Positions 39,778 through 49,122 of a DNA stretch of 64,000 bases are shown here, in pieces; positions within the stretch are counted from its first letter, which is position 1, and each line of letters starts with the position of its first letter. Source of the stretch: Pseudomonas maumuensis (GTDB taxonomy: Bacteria; Pseudomonadota; Gammaproteobacteria; Pseudomonadales; Pseudomonadaceae); assembly GCF_019139675.1 (NCBI RefSeq), contig NZ_CP077077.1, positions 310,001 to 374,000 on the forward strand, given 5' to 3'. The position numbers and the translations under genes were made by a program. The notes under the pieces were generated by a model that did not search any database, was not told the DNA's origin, and saw only the letters and a program-made list of their open reading frames with translations.

Positions 39778-40316
39778 TTGCCATCAGGGGTCACGTCGTC
39801 TCCGTATAGCTCCGCTCCTGTTGGCCTTGCGTATCGCCCGTAGGTGCGATCATTGCTTTTGCCCACCGTTTCTGTTCGCCACACTGTGGATAAAGTGTTC
39901 GCCATTTGCTGGAGCGTACGAAAATCAAGGTGTACAGGCCTTTGAACGAAAAATGATCAGTGCATGCTTCGGCGAGTTGAAAGCCACGAATCTGGATTGG
40001 ATACCTTTAGCAGCTACTTGCCCGCAAATGCTGTTGGCGCCTCTGTGGATAACATGTTGGACGAGTGCTACAGACCTTTATTTGCGCGGCGCTCATAAAC
40101 TTGATCATCTTTTGATCGGTCGGCTAGCAGCCGCCACATAGGCATCTTGTGGATAAAAAGGGGGGCTGAAGGTCAAGAAGCTTGCCCTTGGCCTGGCATT
40201 TTTTACAGTTATCACAAATGCACGTCGGTGATAGCGTGCTTCCAGTCGGCGTGATGCAGCGCCGCGGGGCAGGCTCGCCCCTATCGACTGCCTTTTCAGA
40301 GTAGGAGTTGCGGGTA
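39778..40316. other. Non-coding region with repeated TGTGGATAA boxes before the first Rhs gene
   Basis: About 540 bp carry no credible open frame. TGTGGATAA, the complement of the DnaA-box consensus TTATCCACA, occurs at 39885, 40044 and 40148. The first two are followed by similar text (A/C-ATGTT-C/G-G, then TACAG-G/A-CCTTT), so this looks like a decayed repeat of a longer unit. A REP-like hairpin (GCCGCGGGGCAGGCTCGCCC) lies near 40260-40280. Confidence 0.55.
40148..40210 (+). promoter_or_regulatory. Conserved Rhs leader, copy 1
   Basis: TGTGGATAA (40148-40156) is followed 35 bp later by CCTGGCATTTTTTACAGTT (40192-40210). The same pair precedes the second Rhs gene at almost equal spacing, and the 19-mer also precedes the fourth. 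It probably contains the promoter or a regulator site of these genes. Here a REP-like insert separates it from the start codon. Confidence 0.55.
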
Positions 40317-41105
40317 ATGTCTAGCACGCTATTGGCAACTGACCGCCTTCACAGTCCGCTCGCTCGGTTTGGTACCAATAACAGCATTAGCGCATACACA
40401 CCATACGGTCACAGGTACAAGCTGACAGAGAAACCTAGCTTGGGATTCACCGGCCAATTGCGCGAACCTGCATCAGATTGGTATCTGCTGGGCAATGGCC
40501 ATAGGGTCTACAGTCCGGTACTCATGTGCCTGTGCTCTCCCGACAGACTCAGCCCTTTTGGAAAAGGAGGGGTTAATGCGTATGCCTATTGTCAGCGAGA
40601 CCCGATAAATCTAGTCGATTCAAGTGGCAGATTTGCAGTAGAGATAGTTTCCTATTACCTCGCAGCGAAAATATCGTTGGAATTTATCAATGTTGGATTG
40701 AAGCAATGGAAGAAGCTGGTCACGGGGTCAAGTCGCCCTTGGTCAGACCCTTTGAAATATGCCGAATATACCAGTACTGCCCTGAAGGTATCGACCCTCA
40801 CCTTTCTGGCAGGTGCCGAAATTACTAAAAGATCTGCGCCGGCGATTACAGATCCCAGCAATAATTTTCAGGTGCATATGCGCCAGGACCGACTCTGGGA
40901 TGCGGACGTTGTAAAGGGCGTGGCGATGATTACCGGACTTACAGCCATTACGATAGATGGTTACGTTAATGGTGTCGATTTAGATAGGGCGAGAAAAAAG
41001 GCGCACCTAAATAAACATAAAAATGACATACGTCGGGGAGATGAAGGAACTGCTGGGGGAGATGCTGATGCCGCAATAAATGTTGACGATATTGACGTGG
41101 TCTGA
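40317..41105 (+). CDS. Orphan Rhs-core protein 1
   Basis: This 262-residue protein holds only the end of an Rhs polypeptide. After a short start (MSSTLLATDRLHSPLARF), AYTPYGHRYK opens the core, followed by GFTGQLREP, YLLGNGHRVYSP and GKGGVNAYAYCQRDPINLVD. There the constant part stops near residue 100, and a unique C-terminal region of about 160 residues follows (hydrophobic, then a KKAHLNKHKNDIRRGDEG basic stretch and an acidic end). There are no YD repeats, shell, signal or PAAR. Full-size Rhs toxins are over 1,000 residues. No immunity-like gene follows; an IS5-type element begins 45 bp downstream. The function is unknown. Confidence 0.75.
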   Translation: MSSTLLATDRLHSPLARFGTNNSISAYTPYGHRYKLTEKPSLGFTGQLREPASDWYLLGNGHRVYSPVLMCLCSPDRLSPFGKGGVNAYAYCQRDPINLVDSSGRFAVEIVSYYLAAKISLEFINVGLKQWKKLVTGSSRPWSDPLKYAEYTSTALKVSTLTFLAGAEITKRSAPAITDPSNNFQVHMRQDRLWDADVVKGVAMITGLTAITIDGYVNGVDLDRARKKAHLNKHKNDIRRGDEGTAGGDADAAINVDDIDVV

Positions 41106-41150
41106 CGGCAGTCTGTCGGAGTTCGGCAATGCTCCAGGTTACCAACCCTA

Positions 41151-42079
41151 GGTTCTGTATGAAAACCTTTGAAACCTCACCGGAGCCTCTGGAAGCCTGA
41201 TTTTCCGTAGAGTCTCGCTTTTTAGGCGAAGGATTCTGCCATGGCCAAGCGATACGAACTTTCCGACGCAGAATGGGAAATAGTCGCGGACTTCTTCGCA
41301 GCACATCGACGTAAAGGACGCCCAAGAGTTGACGATCGTTTGATGCTCAACGGCGTGTTGTGGGTGCTGTGCTCCGGTGCAACCTGGCGGGACATGCCTG
41401 AACGATTCGGGCCTTGGTCGACGGTTTATCAACGATTTCGGGACTGGCGAAACCAAGGAACCTTCAACAAGTTGCTCAAGCGGTTACACCTCAAACTCAA
41501 TGCACAGGGCCAGATTGACTTGACCACCTGGTGCGTCGACTCAACCGCCGTGAGGGCCACCCGTGCCTCTGCCGGAGCAGGCAAAAAAGGGGGCTGAAGA
41601 GCCAACGGACCACGCACTTGGACGAAGCCGGGGCGGGTTGACGACGAAAATTCACATGGTCAGTGACGTCCGTGGCATCCCACTCCACTTCACGCTCTCA
41701 GCGGGTAACGCCAGCGACATCTCCCATGCTCAGCGACTGCTGGACGGTATCCACATCCCCTCGAATCGAGGTAGGCCACGCAAGCGCTGCCGCTGGCTCC
41801 TGGCCGACAAAGGCTATGACGCAGAATCCTTGCGGCAATACTGCGACCGCTATCGGATACAGCCGGTTATTCCGCTGCGTGACATGAAGCGCAAGCCGAA
41901 GCCGGGCTTACCGCGCCTGTTTGACAAGCCCAAGTATCGGCAGCGGAACGCTATCGAACGGCTGTTTGGTTGGTTGAAGGAGCACCGCCGCCTATTGCAA
42001 GCTAGCAGAAAGCTTCGTTGCTATGGTAACGCTGGCTTGCTGGCGGCGGTGTTTACGACATTATTTTTCGTACAGTACC
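41151..42079 (+). mobile_element. IS5-family (IS427-group-like) insertion sequence
   Basis: About 930 bp are bounded by inverted ends GGTTCTGTATGAAAA (left) and, on the other strand, GGTACTGTACGAAAA (right), each flanked by CTAG (41148-41151 and 42079-42082), i.e. the TA-type target duplication common in this group. It encodes a two-frame DDE transposase. It is inserted between Rhs genes 1 and 2. The frame of the second half runs on past the right end into host DNA. Confidence 0.75.
41241..41597 (+). CDS. IS5-family transposase, first frame (OrfA)
   Basis: This 118-residue N-terminal half holds MAKRYELSDAEWEIVADFF, GRPRVDDRLMLNGVLWVLCS and GATWRDMPERFGPWSTVYQR (DUF4096-type start), plus the first catalytic Asp in TTWCVDSTAVRA. 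The frame ends at TGA (41595) immediately after the run A6G5 (41583-41593). The second half continues in the +1 frame from that run, so slippage on it would give full-length transposase. Confidence 0.88.
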   Translation: MAKRYELSDAEWEIVADFFAAHRRKGRPRVDDRLMLNGVLWVLCSGATWRDMPERFGPWSTVYQRFRDWRNQGTFNKLLKRLHLKLNAQGQIDLTTWCVDSTAVRATRASAGAGKKGG

Positions 42080-42126
42080 TAGATTTCAAAGGGTTGGATG
42101 AGGCTGGTTGTTTTTTGATCAATTAA
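41563..42126 (+). CDS. IS5-family transposase, second frame (OrfB)
   Basis: This frame has no initiation signal of its own and begins in practice near the A6G5 run. It contains HALGRSRGGLTTKIHMVSD, the second catalytic Asp in WLLADKGYDAES and the Glu in YRQRNAIERLFGWLKEHR (DDE set complete with OrfA). The last 15 or so codons lie beyond the right inverted repeat, so the C-terminus is supplied by flanking DNA. Whether the split is programmed or mutational cannot be decided from one copy. Confidence 0.85.
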   Translation: MPLPEQAKKGAEEPTDHALGRSRGGLTTKIHMVSDVRGIPLHFTLSAGNASDISHAQRLLDGIHIPSNRGRPRKRCRWLLADKGYDAESLRQYCDRYRIQPVIPLRDMKRKPKPGLPRLFDKPKYRQRNAIERLFGWLKEHRRLLQASRKLRCYGNAGLLAAVFTTLFFVQYLDFKGLDEAGCFLIN

Positions 42127-42172
42127 AAAATCCTTGTCATTCAAACTACGTCACCCAGCCTACTTGAGGGAC

Positions 42173-42234
42173 TGTGGATAAAAACCCTTCGATTAGGCGC
42201 TTTCCCAGAGGGATACCTGGCATTTTTGTCAGTT
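42173..42234 (+). promoter_or_regulatory. Conserved Rhs leader, copy 2
   Basis: TGTGGATAA (42173-42181) and CCTGGCATTTTTGTCAGTT (42216-42234) are separated by 34 bp, against 35 bp in copy 1. The start codon of Rhs gene 2 is 59 bp beyond. The text between the two blocks is not conserved, which points to two separate functional sites. Confidence 0.55.
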
Positions 42235-42292
42235 TTCGCAGCACAACGGCAATGCTAGTTTGGCCCCAATCAACCCCCGTGAGAATAAGCAC

Positions 42293-43144
42293 ATGGCCAG
42301 GAAAAGTTTGCTTGGCGTAGACAGGCTGCAAAGCCCACATTCAAGAATGACTTCTTCTGGCCGGACAGCGATCGCCTACACACCCTATGGCTGGCGCCCC
42401 GCGCCGCAAGAGCCCTCTATGACGGAGTTCACTGGCCAACTGCGAGAGGTCGAATTGGGCTGTTACCTGCTGGGTAATGGTCATCGCGCTTTTTGCCCGT
42501 CGTTGATGCGGTTTTTTTCTGCTGATGTGATGAGCCCGTTTGGGACAGGTGGAGTGAATAGTTATGCCTACTGTCAAGGTGATCCTATTAACAAGATAGA
42601 CCCTACAGGGCAAGCTGGCTGGCTTCCACACCATGTCACAATAGCAGCAAATGGATTAACTTTAGCTGCGACGGGGCTTGATTATGTTAATAAAAAAATT
42701 ACAGGAGAGCATATTAGTTATACAGACCATGCCCGTCTGGCTGCAGCAGGAACTCTTGCATTATGGGGAGAGGTAGCTGGAATTCATCAATATCAAAGAG
42801 GTGACGAAGGGGGTGTTGTAGCTGATGTGACGACAGTTCTAGCCCCGCTAGTGTTTTTCGCTGATCAGCTTGGTCACTTCGGGATGAATTCTTATCGCTG
42901 GCTTAGGGAGCGTATGGCTGCTCGCAGTGGTACGCCGCCACCGTCTCCTAATCAGGTGATAGTCAATCGGAGAGAACCAAATATTGCAGATCGTAGAGCA
43001 ACTACCGTTGGCGAGGCCGTGAATTTAGCTCAAATGATCCTTACACAGCAAGATGGAGTTCCAGTTACTGTCTTTCAATTCCCTCCCGCTGCCGAACTTC
43101 AGGATTCTCAGGCTTCAATCAGGGATGGAATAGGAACTTTCTAG
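42293..43144 (+). CDS. Orphan Rhs-core protein 2
   Basis: This 283-residue protein has the same plan as protein 1: start MARKSLLGVDRLQSPHSRM, then IAYTPYGWRP, EFTGQLREVELGCYLLGNGH, MRFFSADVMSPFGTGGVNSY and AYCQGDPINKIDPTGQ, followed by a unique C-terminus of about 170 residues. That region begins with a hydrophobic helix (VTIAANGLTLAATGLDYV), has a second (ADVTTVLAPLVFFADQLG), and ends in a polar tail. There is no export signal and no following immunity gene. The variable tail is AT-rich compared with the betaine genes. Toxicity is possible by homology of the core only. Confidence 0.75.
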   Translation: MARKSLLGVDRLQSPHSRMTSSGRTAIAYTPYGWRPAPQEPSMTEFTGQLREVELGCYLLGNGHRAFCPSLMRFFSADVMSPFGTGGVNSYAYCQGDPINKIDPTGQAGWLPHHVTIAANGLTLAATGLDYVNKKITGEHISYTDHARLAAAGTLALWGEVAGIHQYQRGDEGGVVADVTTVLAPLVFFADQLGHFGMNSYRWLRERMAARSGTPPPSPNQVIVNRREPNIADRRATTVGEAVNLAQMILTQQDGVPVTVFQFPPAAELQDSQASIRDGIGTF

Positions 43145-43193
43145 TCTGTAAAGTATCGCAGGCGGTCTGCTGTTAATTATTTGGAGGTATAGA

Positions 43194-44029
43194 ATGCGAC
43201 CATCGATTATTTTGGGGGGCGACCATCAGTCGAGTAGAGTGATAGCCCTCACTCAAGGACTTTTGCAATGTGTTACTTATACGCCCTATGGTTATAACCG
43301 ACCCCAGGTTGGGGGGGGGATTTTGGCTATACAGGGCAATACTTTGATGGTTGCTTGGAAAGGTATTTACTGGGTAATGGTTATCGAGTGTATAGCCCAT
43401 GGCTGATGCGCTTTAATTCCCCGGATCGTATAAGTCCGTTTGAACGAGGGGGGATCAACGCCTATGCATACTGTGAGGGGAGTCCAGTTAACTGGCAGGA
43501 CCATTCTGGGAGTCAAAGAAGTAAAGCAGGATCTATGCATGACCTCAGGCAGTCCGGTGCTTTATCGGATGTTTCTGTTAGGGCTATGCATGAAGTCTTT
43601 TCTTACGCAAAGTCCGTTCGGAAGCAATTGAGCCTCAGCCAGCTAGATGTGGAAGGTCGAGTCGGGGATGCTGAATACTTCCTTGATATAGCCAGGAGGG
43701 ACAAACGGAAATTTGAAATAGCGCATCATAACCTTTTAGCGGCACTTGTTCCGTTGGAGGCTAAACTTCGTAATGTTCAAGGGTACAAGTCTAGGGTTGA
43801 AGGTGGTATCAAAAAGCTGAGTATTTATATAGGTAAAGTTGACGTTGAGATGTTTAAGGAGCCTTCGCACGATAGTGGTATGATTCCATTCGGAGAAAGT
43901 TATGAAGGAAATTATTTTAATTATTCAATTGATTCAATTGATTCGAGTGGCTCGAATGATTCAATACCTTATGAACGTCCTCGATTAGGCACTTGGCCTT
44001 CCTCTAAGATGGGCGAGGTTCGGCAGTGA
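43194..44029 (+). pseudogene. Orphan Rhs-core gene 3, out of frame at a G9 tract
   Basis: TTTGGAGG precedes ATG at 43194. The first frame encodes MRPSIILGGDHQSSRVIALT and VTYTPYGYNRPQVG, and the second (in frame from about 43322) encodes FGYTGQYFDGCLERYLLGNG, YRVYSPWLMRFNSPDRISPF, GGINAYAYCEGSPVNWQD and a helical, charged tail. They are separated by a run of nine G at 43311-43319. Seven or ten G would join them into one protein of about 278 residues. It is listed as a pseudogene because the present copy is broken, but poly-G phase variation or a sequencing error are alternatives. Its upstream region lacks the 19-bp leader of the others. Confidence 0.7.
43923..43967 (+). repeat. Imperfect 9-bp tandem repeat in Rhs gene 3
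   Basis: Five 9-bp units, variants of ATTCAATTG, encode an Ile-Asp-Ser-type tripeptide series (SIDSIDSSGSNDSI). The unit is a multiple of three, so copy-number change would alter tail length without breaking the frame. Confidence 0.6.
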
Positions 44030-44262
44030 CTTTCGAATGGTGCCTTGATTCATATTAGGCTGCATGGGCGAAGACGTAAACTAGGCCATGTGCCTGAAGG
44101 AAGCCGGTATAGATTTTTCCCACCTAGAAGTCCCCAAAGCAAAATGGCATAAAACAAGCGATCTAAGCGATTGATATGCGTGACCCTGTGTAAACCCGCG
44201 CCATTCAAAGGGCCGCAACGCAGCCCTTTGGGAAAAGTAGTTGACTGTGCCCTTCTACTACC

Positions 44263-45555
44263 TTATTGAGCCTGTACTTCTCTCAAATAAGCCGCCGGCT
44301 CCGCCCCCAGATTGTTCAACAACCGCTGGCTGTACCAATCAATAAAATTCACCACCCCAAACTCATAAGTCTTCGAATACGGCCCCGGCTGGTAAGCCGT
44401 TGAATTTATCCCCCGCTGGTTCTCCTCCGCCAACCGCCGATCCTGGTCATTGGTGGCATCCCACACCTTGCGCATCTCTTCAGGGTTGTAGTCCACCCCC
44501 TCCACCGCATCCTTGTGCACCAGCCACTTGGTGGTGACCATGGTCTCCTGGGCACTGATCGGCCACACGGTGAACACGATCATATGGTCGCCCATGCAGT
44601 GGTTCCACGAATGCGGCAGGTGCAGGATGCGCATCGAGCCGAGGTCCGGGTTCTTGATGCGCCCCATCAGCTTCTTGCACGCCACCTTGCCGTCCATGGT
44701 CATCGACACGGTGCCCTTGAGCAGCGGCATGCGCACGATGCGGTTACGCAGGCCGTGGCTTTTGTGCAGGTAAGGGATCTTCTCGGCTTCCCAGGCGGCG
44801 GCGGAGGCGGCGACGTGGTCCTTGAATTCCTGGCTGGCGCGGGGGTCGTTGGTGTCGTCCCATTCCAGCAGGGTCTTCAGCAATTCTGGGTGCGAGCCGT
44901 TGCAGTGGTAGCACTCGCGGTTGTTCTCCAGTACCAGTTTCCAGTTGGCCTTTTCCATCAAGGTGGTCTGCACCGCCACCTTGGTGTTTTCCATGTCGTA
45001 CGGTTCCATGTAGTGGTCGAGCGTGGCGAGGAACTCGTCGATGGCCGGTGGATTCTCGGCCAGGCTGATGAAGATGTAGCCCCCGGCCACCTTCACGTTC
45101 ACCGGTTTCAGGCCGTAGTCCTTCATGTCGAAGTCGGCGCCCATCTCGGTGCCGGCGAACAACAGGCGGCCATCGAGTTCGTAAGTCCACTGGTGGTAAT
45201 GGCAGACCAGCTTGGCCACCTTGCCTTTGTCGCTCACGCACAGCCGCGAGCCGCGGTGGCGGCAGACGTTGTGGAAGGCATGCACTTTACCTTCGGCACC
45301 GCGTATCACGATGATCGGGTTCTTGCCGATCTGCAGGGTGATGTAGTTGCCCTTGGTCGGGATCTCGCAAACCATGCCGGCGATCAGCCACTCCTTGTGG
45401 AAGATCTCCTGCATGTCGATCTGGAACAGGCGCTCATCGCAGTAGAACGGTTGCGGCAGCGAGTAGGTGCGCTCGCGGGTCTGCAGCATCTCGGCGGTTG
45501 CCTTGCGTGCAGGTTCCAGTGGATCGCCCAGGCTCAGGGTTGCGGTGACGTCCAT
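44263..45555 (-). CDS. gbcA: Glycine betaine monooxygenase, Rieske oxygenase subunit
   Basis: This 430-residue enzyme hydroxylates and demethylates glycine betaine to dimethylglycine and formaldehyde. Rieske 2Fe-2S ligands are C98, H100, C118 and H121 (CRHRGSRL and CHYHQW). The mononuclear iron His pair lies in NNRECYHCNGSHPE (H217, H222). Length and the SFD-like DGRLLFAG segment match the choline monooxygenase-like family. GAGGA stands before the ATG. It is divergent from gbcB, its reductase. No strong terminator follows; a GC hairpin at 44206-44232 lacks T. Confidence 0.94.
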   Translation of the reverse strand: MDVTATLSLGDPLEPARKATAEMLQTRERTYSLPQPFYCDERLFQIDMQEIFHKEWLIAGMVCEIPTKGNYITLQIGKNPIIVIRGAEGKVHAFHNVCRHRGSRLCVSDKGKVAKLVCHYHQWTYELDGRLLFAGTEMGADFDMKDYGLKPVNVKVAGGYIFISLAENPPAIDEFLATLDHYMEPYDMENTKVAVQTTLMEKANWKLVLENNRECYHCNGSHPELLKTLLEWDDTNDPRASQEFKDHVAASAAAWEAEKIPYLHKSHGLRNRIVRMPLLKGTVSMTMDGKVACKKLMGRIKNPDLGSMRILHLPHSWNHCMGDHMIVFTVWPISAQETMVTTKWLVHKDAVEGVDYNPEEMRKVWDATNDQDRRLAEENQRGINSTAYQPGPYSKTYEFGVVNFIDWYSQRLLNNLGAEPAAYLREVQAQ

Positions 45556-45850
45556 CGTGTGGTCCTCGTGGCCGCGTGCGGCCGGCTGAAGTGGCTAATC
45601 GTTGTTGTAGTGCCGCAAGGCTGTCGTTGGATGAACAGCGTGTTGTTTTGCCGAGGAGTGTGCGTCCGGGCCGGGAAAGGACCATATCCACGGGCGACAT
45701 GGCCGCATCGAATTCCGACGCGCCAGCCCTTGTAGCGCGGGGCTGGTCGCGATAAGCACGCCGATGTCGCGGATGGGAATGTACGTAGACGGCGCTATGC
45801 GCATTATCGGAGCCATAAGAAAGGCCGACAGTCGGCTGCTGGAGATGAAC
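45556..45850. promoter_or_regulatory. Divergent gbcA-gbcB promoter region
   Basis: 295 bp separate the two start codons. GTCGCGAT at 45746 and GTCGCGGAT at 45766 are direct repeats 20 bp apart, the second within ATGTCGCGG. This resembles the ATGTCGTAA shared by the cbcX/sdaB and glyA upstream regions. In P. aeruginosa GbdR activates gbcA and gbcB from this gap, so the repeats are candidate half-sites. Inferred. Confidence 0.45.
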
Positions 45851-46951
45851 ATGTCCGATACCTTCCTCAATCCGGTTACCACCCAGACCTGGGCCAATGG
45901 CCGCCACATCGTGCGCTGCGTCAAGGTCATCCAGGAAACCTGGGACGTGCGCACCTTCTGCTTCATGGCCGACCAGCCGATCATGTTCTTCTTCAAGCCC
46001 GGGCAGTTCGTCACCCTGGAGCTGGAGATAGAAGGCAAGCCGGTGATGCGTTCGTACACCATATCCAGCTCACCATCGGTGCCTTACAGCTTCTCGATCA
46101 CCGTCAAGCGCGTACCGGGCGGGCTGGTCTCCAACTTCCTCCACGACACCATGCACGAAGGCGCTGAGCTGCCGGTGCATGGGCCGGTGGGGCTGTTCAA
46201 CGCCATCGACTTTCCGGCCGGCAAGACGCTGTACCTGTCCGGCGGCGTCGGCATCACCCCGGTGATGTCCATGGCCCGCTGGTTCTACGACACCAACGCC
46301 AATGTCGACATGGTGTTCGTACACAGCGCCCGCTCGCCGAAAGACATCATCTACCACCGCGAGCTGGAGCAGATGGCCTCGCGCATCCCCAACTTCAGCC
46401 TGCATATCATTTGCGAGAAGCATGGGCTGGGTGAGCCGTGGGCGGGTTATCGCGGCTACCTCAACCAGCGCCTGATGGAGCTGATCGCCCCGGACTACCT
46501 GGAACGCGTGATCTTCTGCTGTGGCCCCACGCCCTACATGAGCGCGGTCAAGCGCATGCTCGAGGCGGTCGGCTTCGACATGAAGAACTACCACGAGGAG
46601 TCGTTCGGCGCGACGCCGCCGGAGGCCAAGGCCGACGCGGTGGAGCATGCCGAAGCGGCTGCCGATGCACCGGAAGTGGATGTGGCCGACCTCAACCTGG
46701 TGGAGTTCGTCGGCAGCGACAAGAGCATCCGCGTGGCCCCGGGCGAGACCGTGCATGCGGCGGCGGCCAAGGTCGGGCTGATGATCCCCAAGGCCTGTGG
46801 CATGGGCATCTGCGGCACCTGCAAGGTACTCAAGCTGGGCGGCGAGGTGGAGATGGAGCACAACGGCGGGATCACCGAGGAGGACGAGGCCGAGGGCTAC
46901 ATCCTGTCATGCTGCAGCGTGCCGAAGGGGGATGTGCGGATCGAGTATTGA
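45851..46951 (+). CDS. gbcB: Glycine betaine monooxygenase, ferredoxin reductase subunit
   Basis: This 366-residue reductase has an FAD-binding domain with MRSYTISSSP (RxYS type), an NAD domain starting LYLSGGVGITPVMSMARWFY and ending IFCCGPTPYM, and a C-terminal plant-type 2Fe-2S ferredoxin with CGMGICGTCKVLKLGG and SCCS (C-X4-C-X2-C plus distal C). A spacer of about 30 Ala/Glu/Asp residues links the ferredoxin domain. It feeds electrons from NADH to GbcA. The start at 45851 has GGAG at 6 bp; an ATG 6 bp upstream is less well placed. Confidence 0.93.
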   Translation: MSDTFLNPVTTQTWANGRHIVRCVKVIQETWDVRTFCFMADQPIMFFFKPGQFVTLELEIEGKPVMRSYTISSSPSVPYSFSITVKRVPGGLVSNFLHDTMHEGAELPVHGPVGLFNAIDFPAGKTLYLSGGVGITPVMSMARWFYDTNANVDMVFVHSARSPKDIIYHRELEQMASRIPNFSLHIICEKHGLGEPWAGYRGYLNQRLMELIAPDYLERVIFCCGPTPYMSAVKRMLEAVGFDMKNYHEESFGATPPEAKADAVEHAEAAADAPEVDVADLNLVEFVGSDKSIRVAPGETVHAAAAKVGLMIPKACGMGICGTCKVLKLGGEVEMEHNGGITEEDEAEGYILSCCSVPKGDVRIEY

Positions 46952-46995
46952 TCTGCATTGGGGGGGCCGCAAAGCGGCCTTGGTTGCATGGGGCA

Positions 46996-47014
46996 CCTGA
47001 TATTTTTGGCAGTT
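46996..47014 (+). promoter_or_regulatory. Conserved Rhs leader, copy 3
   Basis: CCTGATATTTTTGGCAGTT differs from the two other leaders only at variable positions. It is 61 bp before the start codon of Rhs gene 4, against 59 bp for gene 2. No TGTGGATAA box is present at the expected distance, which falls in the gbcB end/hairpin region. Confidence 0.5.
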
Positions 47015-47074
47015 CCACTACCGCCGCAGCGCTGCCAATCTTCGGATGGCACTCTCGGCGAAGAACTGTGGACA

Positions 47075-47860
47075 ATGCCTACCTACTTGCTTGCCTGTGA
47101 CAAACGGTACACCCCCTTCGACGGCATTGGTTTTTCCGGTCGCGGCTATACCCCCTATGGGGCGTTAACGTCACTGACCAGCCCGATGACAGGTTTCTGT
47201 GGCCAGCCTCGTGACCCCCGGATGGATCGCTATCCGCTGGGCAATGGGCACCGTCGGTACAGTCCTGCCTTGATGCGGTTCCAAGAACCTGACGCGTTGA
47301 GTCCGTTCGACGAGGGCGGCATCAACGCGTACATGTATTGTGCGGGAGATCCGGTGAACCGGATTGATCCGACTGGGGGTTACTCTGCCTTGGTCTCGCA
47401 GATCATTCAGCGCTCCGGGACCATCGCATTGCATGCTGCCTCCCCGCTGGCATTGTTGTTGGGACCCGAGCCCAAGGGGACGTTGGCGGTGAACGCCACA
47501 CGGGTTGCCCTGGCTGGCTCCGCCACCAGTGTGGTGGCAGCAGGGTTGGGGTTGGCCGGGGTGGCGGCGGCAACCTATGTTGCCAATGCCGGGACTGCTC
47601 TGCTGGCAGCGGGAGCAGGGACTCGAATTGCCAAGGCGGTCTGGGAGAACCGAACGGAGCTCTGGCAGTATGTCAAGGACAGTGTCAGCACCAATGCAAG
47701 GGCAGTGCTGGGGCTGCGCAGAGAAAGTCCAGTCGGAGTAACTGGTGGAATTTCCAACGATCGTGTCTTCACAATTGACGACGAAGAGACTTTGCCGGCT
47801 GACGCTGCGAATGGCATCAGGGTTGGGTCTGATGCCATTAAGCCGGGTGTATGGACTTGA
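47075..47860 (+). CDS. Orphan Rhs-core protein 4, 3' end altered by an IS481 insertion
   Basis: The 261-residue product has a start MPTYLLACDKRYTPFDGIGF, then GYTPYGALT, GFCGQPRD, YPLGNGHRRYSPALMRF, DEGGINAYMYCAGDPVNRID and a C-terminal tail rich in Ala/Gly/Val helices (LAVNATRVALAGSATSVVAA and AAATYVANAGTALLAAGAGT) that could insert in a membrane. Its last residues and stop come from the left end of the IS element starting at 47848. Joining the flanks without the IS and one GCCGGG copy gives a frame ending at the TGA at 49143, about ten residues longer. The codon use is GC-rich, unlike Rhs genes 2 and 3. Confidence 0.7.
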   Translation: MPTYLLACDKRYTPFDGIGFSGRGYTPYGALTSLTSPMTGFCGQPRDPRMDRYPLGNGHRRYSPALMRFQEPDALSPFDEGGINAYMYCAGDPVNRIDPTGGYSALVSQIIQRSGTIALHAASPLALLLGPEPKGTLAVNATRVALAGSATSVVAAGLGLAGVAAATYVANAGTALLAAGAGTRIAKAVWENRTELWQYVKDSVSTNARAVLGLRRESPVGVTGGISNDRVFTIDDEETLPADAANGIRVGSDAIKPGVWT

Positions 47861-49108
47861 GACATCGCTGACACATGTGCGGGGACATGGTGGACACATT
47901 ATCGCTTACCGTCGGGGTTGTTGAAGTCGATGGTTCGCAGCTTGTGCTGGCAGAAGTAAACATCAAAATGGTCAGGCCCTTGATCGCTGCGGCGGAGCGC
48001 CAACACATAGCCTGCTAGCGCCTTGGCTATCCGAAATGAGCGTTTCTTGAAGCGGAACTGACTGCTGTAGGGTTTCACCAAAATATCATCGGGACCGTAT
48101 TCAACGGGCGGTAGACGGCTTGGGAAAGCCCGCCTGCTCATCTGGTAGCGATCTGCCGGTACTTTGTAGCCCAACTGCTGATGAGGACGCTTGTAGTTGT
48201 AAATGCCCCGCCAGAGGTCGAAAGCTTCTTGCGCTTCTCGCAGATCCCGAAAACTGCGCCCGGTTAGTACCTCGGCCTTGAGCGTCCGGTGGAATCGCTC
48301 ATCCTTGCCATTGGTTTGTGGGTGGCCTGGCCTGCTGAAAGTCAGTCGAATTCCCAGACGAACCAGCCAGATACCTAGCGGTGTGAGTTCTCCGGGATTT
48401 CTTGGCGCCCCCCAGGGCGAGCCATTATCCGCGTTGATCTGCACGGGCAGTCCATACCGGCTGAACAGATCGGTCAGGTGCTCCATGACCAACCCTGTGC
48501 GCTGATGTGTGCAGGCCTGTATCACAAGGTTAAAGCGTGAGTGGTCATCAATCAGCGTCAGCGGATAACAAGGTCCCTGAGCCGTTTGGAAGAAACCTTT
48601 AAAATCGATCTGCCACAGATCATTCGGGGCTTCGCGCTCAAAGCGTGTCCATGGTTTAGCCGCCTCGGAGGCCTCCGCGGTGATCAATCCATGCCGATGC
48701 AGGACATTGGTTACGGTACTGGCACAGATGCGCTGATCAAGCAGGTGACTGATCTTTCGGCCACCCCACGTGGAGTGCTCCTTACGGATGGCAATCACTT
48801 CCTCTTCTAGCCCAGGCTGAGTCTTGCGAGGGCTGACGGCTGGCTTTCGAGAGCGCTCCTTCAAGCCGAGCAAGCCCTCCTGTCGAAATCGATTGAGCCA
48901 TTTGTAACCCGTCTGAGGGCTAATGCCGAACCGGCGGCATAGCTCCCTCATATTGGCGCCCGGGTGATTGGCCAGGCTAACGAACTCTTCTCTTAAGCTC
49001 ATGGCATCTCTCGCGTTCCAAGGCATGGTCGTATTCCCGGCAGATTGCTTGCCGAAAAGTGTCAACCATGTCTCCGCACACGTGTCCACCATGTGTCCGG
49101 TCCATACA
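47848..49108 (-). mobile_element. IS481-family insertion sequence with target duplication
   Basis: The ends are TGTATGGAC...GACAC and its inverted counterpart. Similarity between the ends extends about 60 bp, including repeated GACAC/GACATGG blocks. GCCGGG occurs directly outside both ends (47842-47847 and 49109-49114), a 6-bp target duplication. The 1,261-bp element carries one transposase gene on the minus strand and disrupts the end of Rhs gene 4. Intact ends, duplication and frame suggest a recent insertion. Confidence 0.88.
47899..49026 (-). CDS. IS481-family transposase
   Basis: This 375-residue transposase has an N-terminal HTH (MRELCRRFGISPQTGYKWLN) followed by the integrase core. 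The DDE residues are in LWQIDFKGFF, VQINADNGSPWG and KDERFHRTLKAEV, with HPQTNGKDERFHR typical of IS481. The C-terminal Mu-type segment YKRPHQQLGYKVPADRY is present. The frame is intact. The start at 49026 gives the usual length for the family; an upstream in-frame ATG at 49092 lies within the terminal repeat. Confidence 0.9.
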   Translation of the reverse strand: MPWNARDAMSLREEFVSLANHPGANMRELCRRFGISPQTGYKWLNRFRQEGLLGLKERSRKPAVSPRKTQPGLEEEVIAIRKEHSTWGGRKISHLLDQRICASTVTNVLHRHGLITAEASEAAKPWTRFEREAPNDLWQIDFKGFFQTAQGPCYPLTLIDDHSRFNLVIQACTHQRTGLVMEHLTDLFSRYGLPVQINADNGSPWGAPRNPGELTPLGIWLVRLGIRLTFSRPGHPQTNGKDERFHRTLKAEVLTGRSFRDLREAQEAFDLWRGIYNYKRPHQQLGYKVPADRYQMSRRAFPSRLPPVEYGPDDILVKPYSSQFRFKKRSFRIAKALAGYVLALRRSDQGPDHFDVYFCQHKLRTIDFNNPDGKR

Positions 49109-49122
49109 GCCGGGGCAAAGTA

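Follow-up and report, generated by a model that had tools for sequence, protein, structure and literature searches.

Shell-less Rhs tip genes of Pseudomonas maumuensis lie behind lux-box-like promoters and may form a PpoR regulon

In a stretch of 64,000 nucleotides of Pseudomonas maumuensis (contig NZ_CP077077.1, positions 310001-374000 of a genome that is one contig, C1, of 5,758,328 bases; this whole stretch is "the window" below), four genes, here called A–D, carry the end of an Rhs core followed by a tail of their own. They are four of 16 short Rhs-core genes ("tips") spread over the 5.76 Mb genome, and the leader of the short tips is a predicted promoter common to this genome and to other species: a lux-box-like dyad at the predicted -35 position. 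On balance, we favor the explanation that the short tips would be free-standing effector genes of one signal-controlled regulon, with the LuxR-type regulator PpoR predicted to bind the box before each transcription unit and switch the set on. The initial annotation of the window had proposed a free-standing family with its own leader, which the promoter bears out well beyond the window; it had also pointed to a cluster around gbcA/gbcB, which, with 16 tips dispersed over the genome, is not special.

Short Rhs-core genes and the box before them

The NCBIfam model TIGR03696 (cut-off 32.5 bits) matches 20 frames of the genome: the 16 tips, of 243-342 amino acids (aa), and four frames of 905, 1471, 1662 and 2813 aa. 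Apart from C and D, the tips are 14 open frames of 248-342 aa. In a profile search of the open reading frames (ORFs) of the window, A, B, D and the second piece of C match this model with 58.6-70 bits, in agreement with the initial annotation, which had recognized the end of an Rhs core in all four. It had also described them as lacking YD repeats, a shell and PAAR, and this held in NCBIfam and Pfam scans of the four proteins, in which no PAAR, YD-repeat or shell model, and indeed no other NCBIfam model and no Pfam model, matched at E up to 1. The cores of A–D, whose letters we take to be TcC-like, resemble one another only moderately. Similar proteins numbered 646 for A and 134 for B, and the nine named loci found with D are all from Pseudomonas, which points to a Pseudomonas host, probably one of the putida group. 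The tips of the window and their predicted promoters are as follows:

40193..40210, + strand: lux-box-like dyad before A (CTGGCATTTTTTACAGTT), from the motif search
40232..40237, + strand: predicted -10 of A, TAGCGT, from the letters and the fixed spacing from the box
40317..41105, + strand: tip gene A, an open frame with the Rhs core end and a tail
42217..42234, + strand: lux-box-like dyad before B (CTGGCATTTTTGTCAGTT), from the motif search
42256..42261, + strand: predicted -10 of B, TAGTTT, from the letters of the window
42293..43144, + strand: tip gene B, an open frame
43194..44029, + strand: tip gene C, two frames broken at a G8 run; it starts 49 nt past the stop of B and is without a box of its own by weight matrix
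46997..47014, + strand: lux-box-like dyad before D (CTGATATTTTTGGCAGTT), from the motif search
47036..47041, + strand: predicted -10 of D, CAATCT, from the letters of the window
47075..47860, + strand: tip gene D, its last codons and stop within the terminal repeat of an IS481 element

Upstream of the short tips lies a 16-bp dyad, CT-N12-AG (for example CTGGCATTTTTGCCAGTT), which we take to be the form of lux boxes. The exact motif CTGNNATTTTTNNCAGTT occurs nine times in the 5.76 Mb, all nine upstream of short tips, and its reversed control not once; with one mismatch allowed there are 20 matches, 13 of them before tips, and one match of the reversed control. A weight matrix places a site before 15 of the 16 tips, C being the exception, and with a common box before that many of them it is likely that they are switched on together. 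A looser dyad rule also reaches 15 of 16: L028 fails it, although the matrix scores this tip, and C is counted via a poor dyad at 43146 that we take as chance (G and L numbers are our handles for genomes and loci). Counted from the start of the box, there is an A at +40 in 30 of 38 sites and a T at +44 in 29 of 38, that is, a -10-like element at fixed spacing; the spacing between box and core is not fixed and ranges from 58 to about 280 nt. LuxR activators in the class II arrangement would have their box centred near -43, and we infer a LuxR-family site here, some 43 bp upstream of the transcription start. An RNA hairpin was also considered for the box and dropped on visual inspection, since several sites have a mismatch at position four of the arm.

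The promoter is readable in other genomes as well. Among 29 short core genes of four relatives (G002, G003, G006 and G009), the matrix from the P. maumuensis genome scores 18 at p<0.01 and 22 at p<0.05, a [CT]T-N12-AG dyad is readable in 24 and the looser rule counts 21; three of the five genes without a dyad stand second, after a tip that has a box, and the other two (L102, L112) resemble, by eye, the 3' portions of longer Rhs genes. Homologues of the tails outside the P. maumuensis genome number 13. Eleven were fetched (among them G071, also found by motif), and 10 of these have a box, the remaining one being a 72-aa fragment in G293 from which no core was obtained; the two that were not fetched belong to the set of 29, both with dyads. 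On nine named Pseudomonas contigs, a box stands at 9 of 11 core genes vs. 109 of 3300 shuffled stretches, and of the two genes that lack one, L240 comes from G002 and was already in the set of 29. The centre of the box varies by genome: TTTTT in some, GTTCT or GAACT in others. In a survey of 28 genomes, which covers matches above about 82 bits (most short tips fall below), two of seven stretches taken from it and one further locus score as this core type. The loci of G121 and G056 run straight on from Rhs coding sequence, with no box within 900 nt, and that of G210 has a dyad 315 nt upstream of the core.

Boxes also stand before genes of other kinds. In the P. maumuensis genome, one (4186683-4186700; L117, 684-701) separates the 1662-aa Rhs gene from a divergent gene of at least 472 aa, with a -10-like TAGCCT at the proper spacing on the Rhs side, and a perfect-armed dyad, CTGGCATTTCTGCCAGTA, lies directly before the 2813-aa Rhs gene (4531197-4531214; L187). 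A one-mismatch box (3450251-3450268; L189) precedes a 904-aa frame with a Peptidase_M60 (enhancin-like) domain, and another box (1946441-1946458; L190, also L097 and L103) precedes a gene of 126-132 aa adjoining an alpha/beta-hydrolase gene in this genome, G003 and G007. Three boxes in L101 (G009:C27:69600-74600) each precede a member of one gene family, whose products look secreted and have about 460-490 aa. The 905-aa frame seems to be the latter half of a longer Rhs gene whose frame is broken; the broken gene, an upstream frame plus this one, runs from 4320761 onward (L191, L186, L014), and no box was seen in the 5.8 kb read around it.

PpoR as the candidate regulator

Three proteins of the P. 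maumuensis genome have a domain for binding acyl-homoserine lactones (AHL). One of them, encoded at 851882-852583, has AHL-binding and GerE domains, and its gene is flanked (as read by eye) by ferredoxin-NADP reductase-like and rRNA methyltransferase-like ORFs. According to the accessible part of a 2021 subgroup survey, genes of subgroup A, to which PpoR belongs, lie between ferredoxin-NADP reductase and 23S rRNA methyltransferase genes; the survey calls the molecular mechanism of PpoR, which was described in 2009, unknown (PMC8546723). By clade, domains and gene neighbors, the P. maumuensis regulator appears to be of the PpoR type. LuxR solos such as PpoR are defined by having no cognate LuxI. 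In a LuxR tree (22 of the 28 LuxR proteins found; the P. maumuensis protein at 2313860 is among the six outside it), the PpoR clade comprises the P. maumuensis genome (G000), G003, G007 and G009, exactly the four of 19 genomes with the exact motif. Across 298 Pseudomonas genomes, the exact motif occurs in 38 of the 43 with a PpoR relative (at least 230 bits, a cut in the gap between 231.8 and 220 bits) vs. 13 of the 255 without one, at 3.4 and 0.09 matches per genome, respectively, with 10 matches of the reversed control in all 298; with the borderline genomes G116 and G071 counted as PpoR genomes, the figures are 40 of 45 vs. 11 of 253.

For the regulatory part, the evidence is indirect but good. 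PpoR, with or without AHL, would bind the boxes, and bound PpoR would switch on the tip genes; probable further targets would be the two long Rhs genes, the M60-type peptidase gene and the 126-aa gene whose box is also found in G003 and G007. The tip products would act as effectors. They may be released, may be delivered with a long Rhs partner or may take a route that recognizes the C-terminus. Three parts of this explanation are inferred: the boxes would be bound here by PpoR and not by another LuxR protein, binding would activate, and the tails would act as toxins on competitors or hosts, the last by analogy.

Several findings weigh against it. Five PpoR genomes (G063, G078, G231, G262 and G281) are without the exact motif, and 11 genomes without PpoR hold 13 matches of it; the association of motif and PpoR is also inflated, because the 298 genomes are related by descent. 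The matrix score in the P. maumuensis genome is partly circular, since 13 of its 15 sites trained the matrix. In the accessible parts of the published work, a PpoR over-expression microarray gave 62 genes, none of them named Rhs (PMC2703642), RNA-seq of a PplR deletion gave 84 genes, with no Rhs name among 21 rows of its table (PMC11543582), and one subgroup A regulator had no effect on its own or its neighbors' promoters (PMC8546723). As to the products, the initial annotation had suggested profile searches of the tails for polymorphic toxin domains, and Pfam gave no toxin domain in the four window proteins at E up to 1. A structure model of A (mean predicted local distance difference test, pLDDT, 63.8; tail helices near 90, residues 1-105 below 50) drew 194 PDB matches at E up to 10, and among the best 50 of the 194 none reached E up to 0.001. 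The label "effector" is given by analogy, because the searches of the tails gave no toxin domain and no fold match.

The strongest alternative, which we nevertheless consider fairly unlikely, is the same regulon driven by another LuxR protein, the candidates being the two further AHL-domain LuxR genes of the P. maumuensis genome, 2922705 (between two alpha/beta-hydrolase-type genes) and 2313860. Tips with differently centred boxes persist in G002, G006, G256 and G137, where no PpoR relative reaches the cut-off, so that other LuxR proteins must serve there. However, the 2922705 type is also present in G004 and G010, both without the motif, and G003, G007, G009 and the P. maumuensis genome have only the PpoR clade in common (in the tree of 22 of 28 LuxR proteins, with 2313860 outside it).

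Tails, their shared ending and the remaining alternatives

The tails had been described initially as diverging completely, yet most tails of this kind end alike. With one representative per cluster, [ILV]R stands in the last 12 residues in 64 of 95 clusters of 262 tails (one cluster holds 80 tails; not in the set are D, L102, L112, proteins with an incomplete core and tails no longer than 60 aa), compared with a mean of 15.4 clusters and a maximum of 29 in 500 rounds of shuffled tails. The pair IR by itself shows a 15-fold enrichment in the last 12 residues over the rest of the tail, and the arginine codons of the signature are mixed, which points to a constraint on the protein. Among the P. 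maumuensis tips other than D, 11 of 15 have [ILV]R among their last 15 residues (of the window tips, B and C carry the signature and A does not), as do 10 of 11 in the named contigs; the closed long Rhs frames of relatives have it in 3 of 22. The 1662-aa and 2813-aa Rhs proteins of P. maumuensis, with boxes upstream, end in QIRG and NNLRFW, and the 1471-aa protein and the 905-aa frame are without the signature. The signature may be read in delivery or storage. Tentatively, and as a speculation that we hold less likely than the regulon itself, the LuxR-solo regulon might extend to a genome-wide set of shell-less Rhs tips whose shared [ILV]R tag would be a delivery or loading signal of an undescribed export route, common to the two box-driven long Rhs proteins.

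What the tails do is suggested by few features. Ten of the other twelve P. maumuensis tips (L011 and L028 were outside the scan) gave two weak domain matches, both below cut-off, and no PADLOC match. The model of A shows a tail of long helices, and in four of the 16 tails of the genome a 19-residue segment exceeds a mean hydropathy of 1.5; both fit membrane action, and no domain or fold match backs any activity. The model of B has a mean pLDDT of 50.3. By sequence, the solved relatives of the core are the Rhs family protein 7q97 and teneurin-like proteins (E 0.0002-0.004) and Tse5 (E 0.2).

Instead, the tips could be the 3' ends of full-size Rhs genes, displaced, silent and stored for recombination in the way proposed for enteric bacteria in the accessible text of PMC2935791. 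We regard this as improbable. The form is the same, a core piece and an unrelated tail, and C and D are damaged; but the tips here have promoters and start codons of their own and are dispersed, the long Rhs genes are far off (at 4.19, 4.32, 4.52 and 5.45 Mb vs. 0.35 Mb for the window tips) and the cores of A–D are alike only to a moderate degree. The tails of A, B and D, moreover, match in 2, 3 and 11 of the 298 genomes (P. maumuensis included), elsewhere at 26-79% identity and in frames of 72-326 aa, and in no full-size Rhs frame of these genomes (the third tail search scored up to 12 candidates per genome). The initial suggestion of a reservoir of toxin tips is unsupported, because no tail of A, B or D matched in a long Rhs frame. 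It had been held that the family would fall if the tails occurred only on full-size genes and the short copies were decaying: the former is not what we found, and the latter is half true, of C (frame-broken) and D (interrupted).

That the tips are decaying remnants without function is very improbable in our view: the break in C and the cut in D by IS481 speak for it, and against it stand the 14 other open copies, the many proteins similar to A and B, a ratio of nonsynonymous to synonymous substitution rates (dN/dS) of 0.33 over 248 codons between D and its relative in G116 (0.25 in the first 100, 0.42 in the remainder) and the conservation of promoters and C-terminal signature. We see as equally improbable a reading of the tips as small toxin-antitoxin units acting inside the cell, after the model of the Salmonella orphan rhs (PMC7043789, accessible text). 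As tip-only proteins with their own promoter they resemble it, but such units would call for a partner gene: the next gene 3' of A is a transposase gene and that of B is C, no ORF of at least 50 aa with a ribosome site starts within 250 nt 3' of C or D (as the initial annotation had it, no recognizable immunity gene follows any of the four), and of the other tips of the genome only three have a candidate ORF with a ribosome site behind them (55, 105 and 227 aa). The 105-aa ORF, in L022, has a signal-like start 66 nt past its tip and is a possible partner gene.

The cluster in its neighborhood and comparison with known systems

Genes for electron-transfer flavoprotein subunits lie upstream of the cluster, a Rieske oxygenase and its reductase (gbcA/gbcB in the initial annotation) lie between C and D, and an IS5-type element lies between A and B. 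Its IS5-family transposase (41241-42126) reads as two overlapping frames with an A6G stretch between and is possibly a normal frameshifting transposase. A second insertion element reaches into D:

47843..49113, - strand: IS481-family element interrupting the 3' end of D, from a transposase match and repeat arms (58-nt terminal repeats at 47843-47900 and 49056-49113)

In G116 (L175, C1:362000-381000), the slot between the flavoprotein and Rieske genes holds one recognized tip with a different tail where the window holds A, IS5, B and C, so to speak a fixed slot with changing content, as far as the two sequences indicate; the relative of D in G116 is without IS481. C falls into two overlapping pieces, 43194-43406 and 43355-44029: its frame changes at the G8 run near 43310, its TIGR03696 match is confined to the second piece and its start is preceded by GGAGG; in G180 a relative of C follows a relative of B as in the window, with its core in one frame in the stretch read. 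The initial view of four genes stands for A and B, both open, and needs amending for C, split in two frames, and D, whose end lies within the IS481 repeat. Of the four, A and B would be those still at work, and C and D would be damaged copies.

The box and the list of targets make a direct PpoR regulon testable, and the shared C-terminal signature is a handle on how shell-less Rhs tips are recognized. Should the tips prove to be effectors, the genus would have a large and polymorphic repertoire of them that can do without an Rhs shell in cis, with a probable link to the chemical signals of neighbors.

Among known systems, the dissociated rhs tips of enteric bacteria also have a core piece followed by an unrelated C-terminal tip; in the accessible text they form strings that follow an intact rhs gene, with near-identical cores, and are thought silent (PMC2935791), whereas the tips here are dispersed, with their own promoters and starts and with diverged cores. 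The orphan rhs toxin of Salmonella Typhimurium is likewise a tip without the delivery part and with its own promoter, but it has an immunity gene and adjoins a full-length rhs gene, and the accessible text mentions no LuxR box (PMC7043789). TcC subunits and orphan TcC proteins share the hypervariable tail behind an Rhs core; 97.2% of TcC proteins, by the accessible part of that study, have 851-1050 aa (PMC7861908), vs. 243-342 aa, without a shell, for the tips here. The Rhs effectors of the type VI secretion system have PAAR or another N-terminal loading domain and a YD-repeat shell, and A–D match TIGR03696 only. A quorum regulon of P. chlororaphis includes, in the accessible text, an Rhs-named gene of a different type, COG3501 (PMC7048289). 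The P. maumuensis regulator shares both domains and the described neighbors with PpoR and other subgroup A solos, for which the accessible parts of the literature name no box or direct target (PMC2703642, PMC8546723, PMC11543582), so that the targets given here are new predictions; no paper in our literature search, at the level of listings and opening lines of abstracts, linked PpoR or a lux box to these genes. The parts, Rhs cores and LuxR-type boxes, are ordinary; their sum is unusual.

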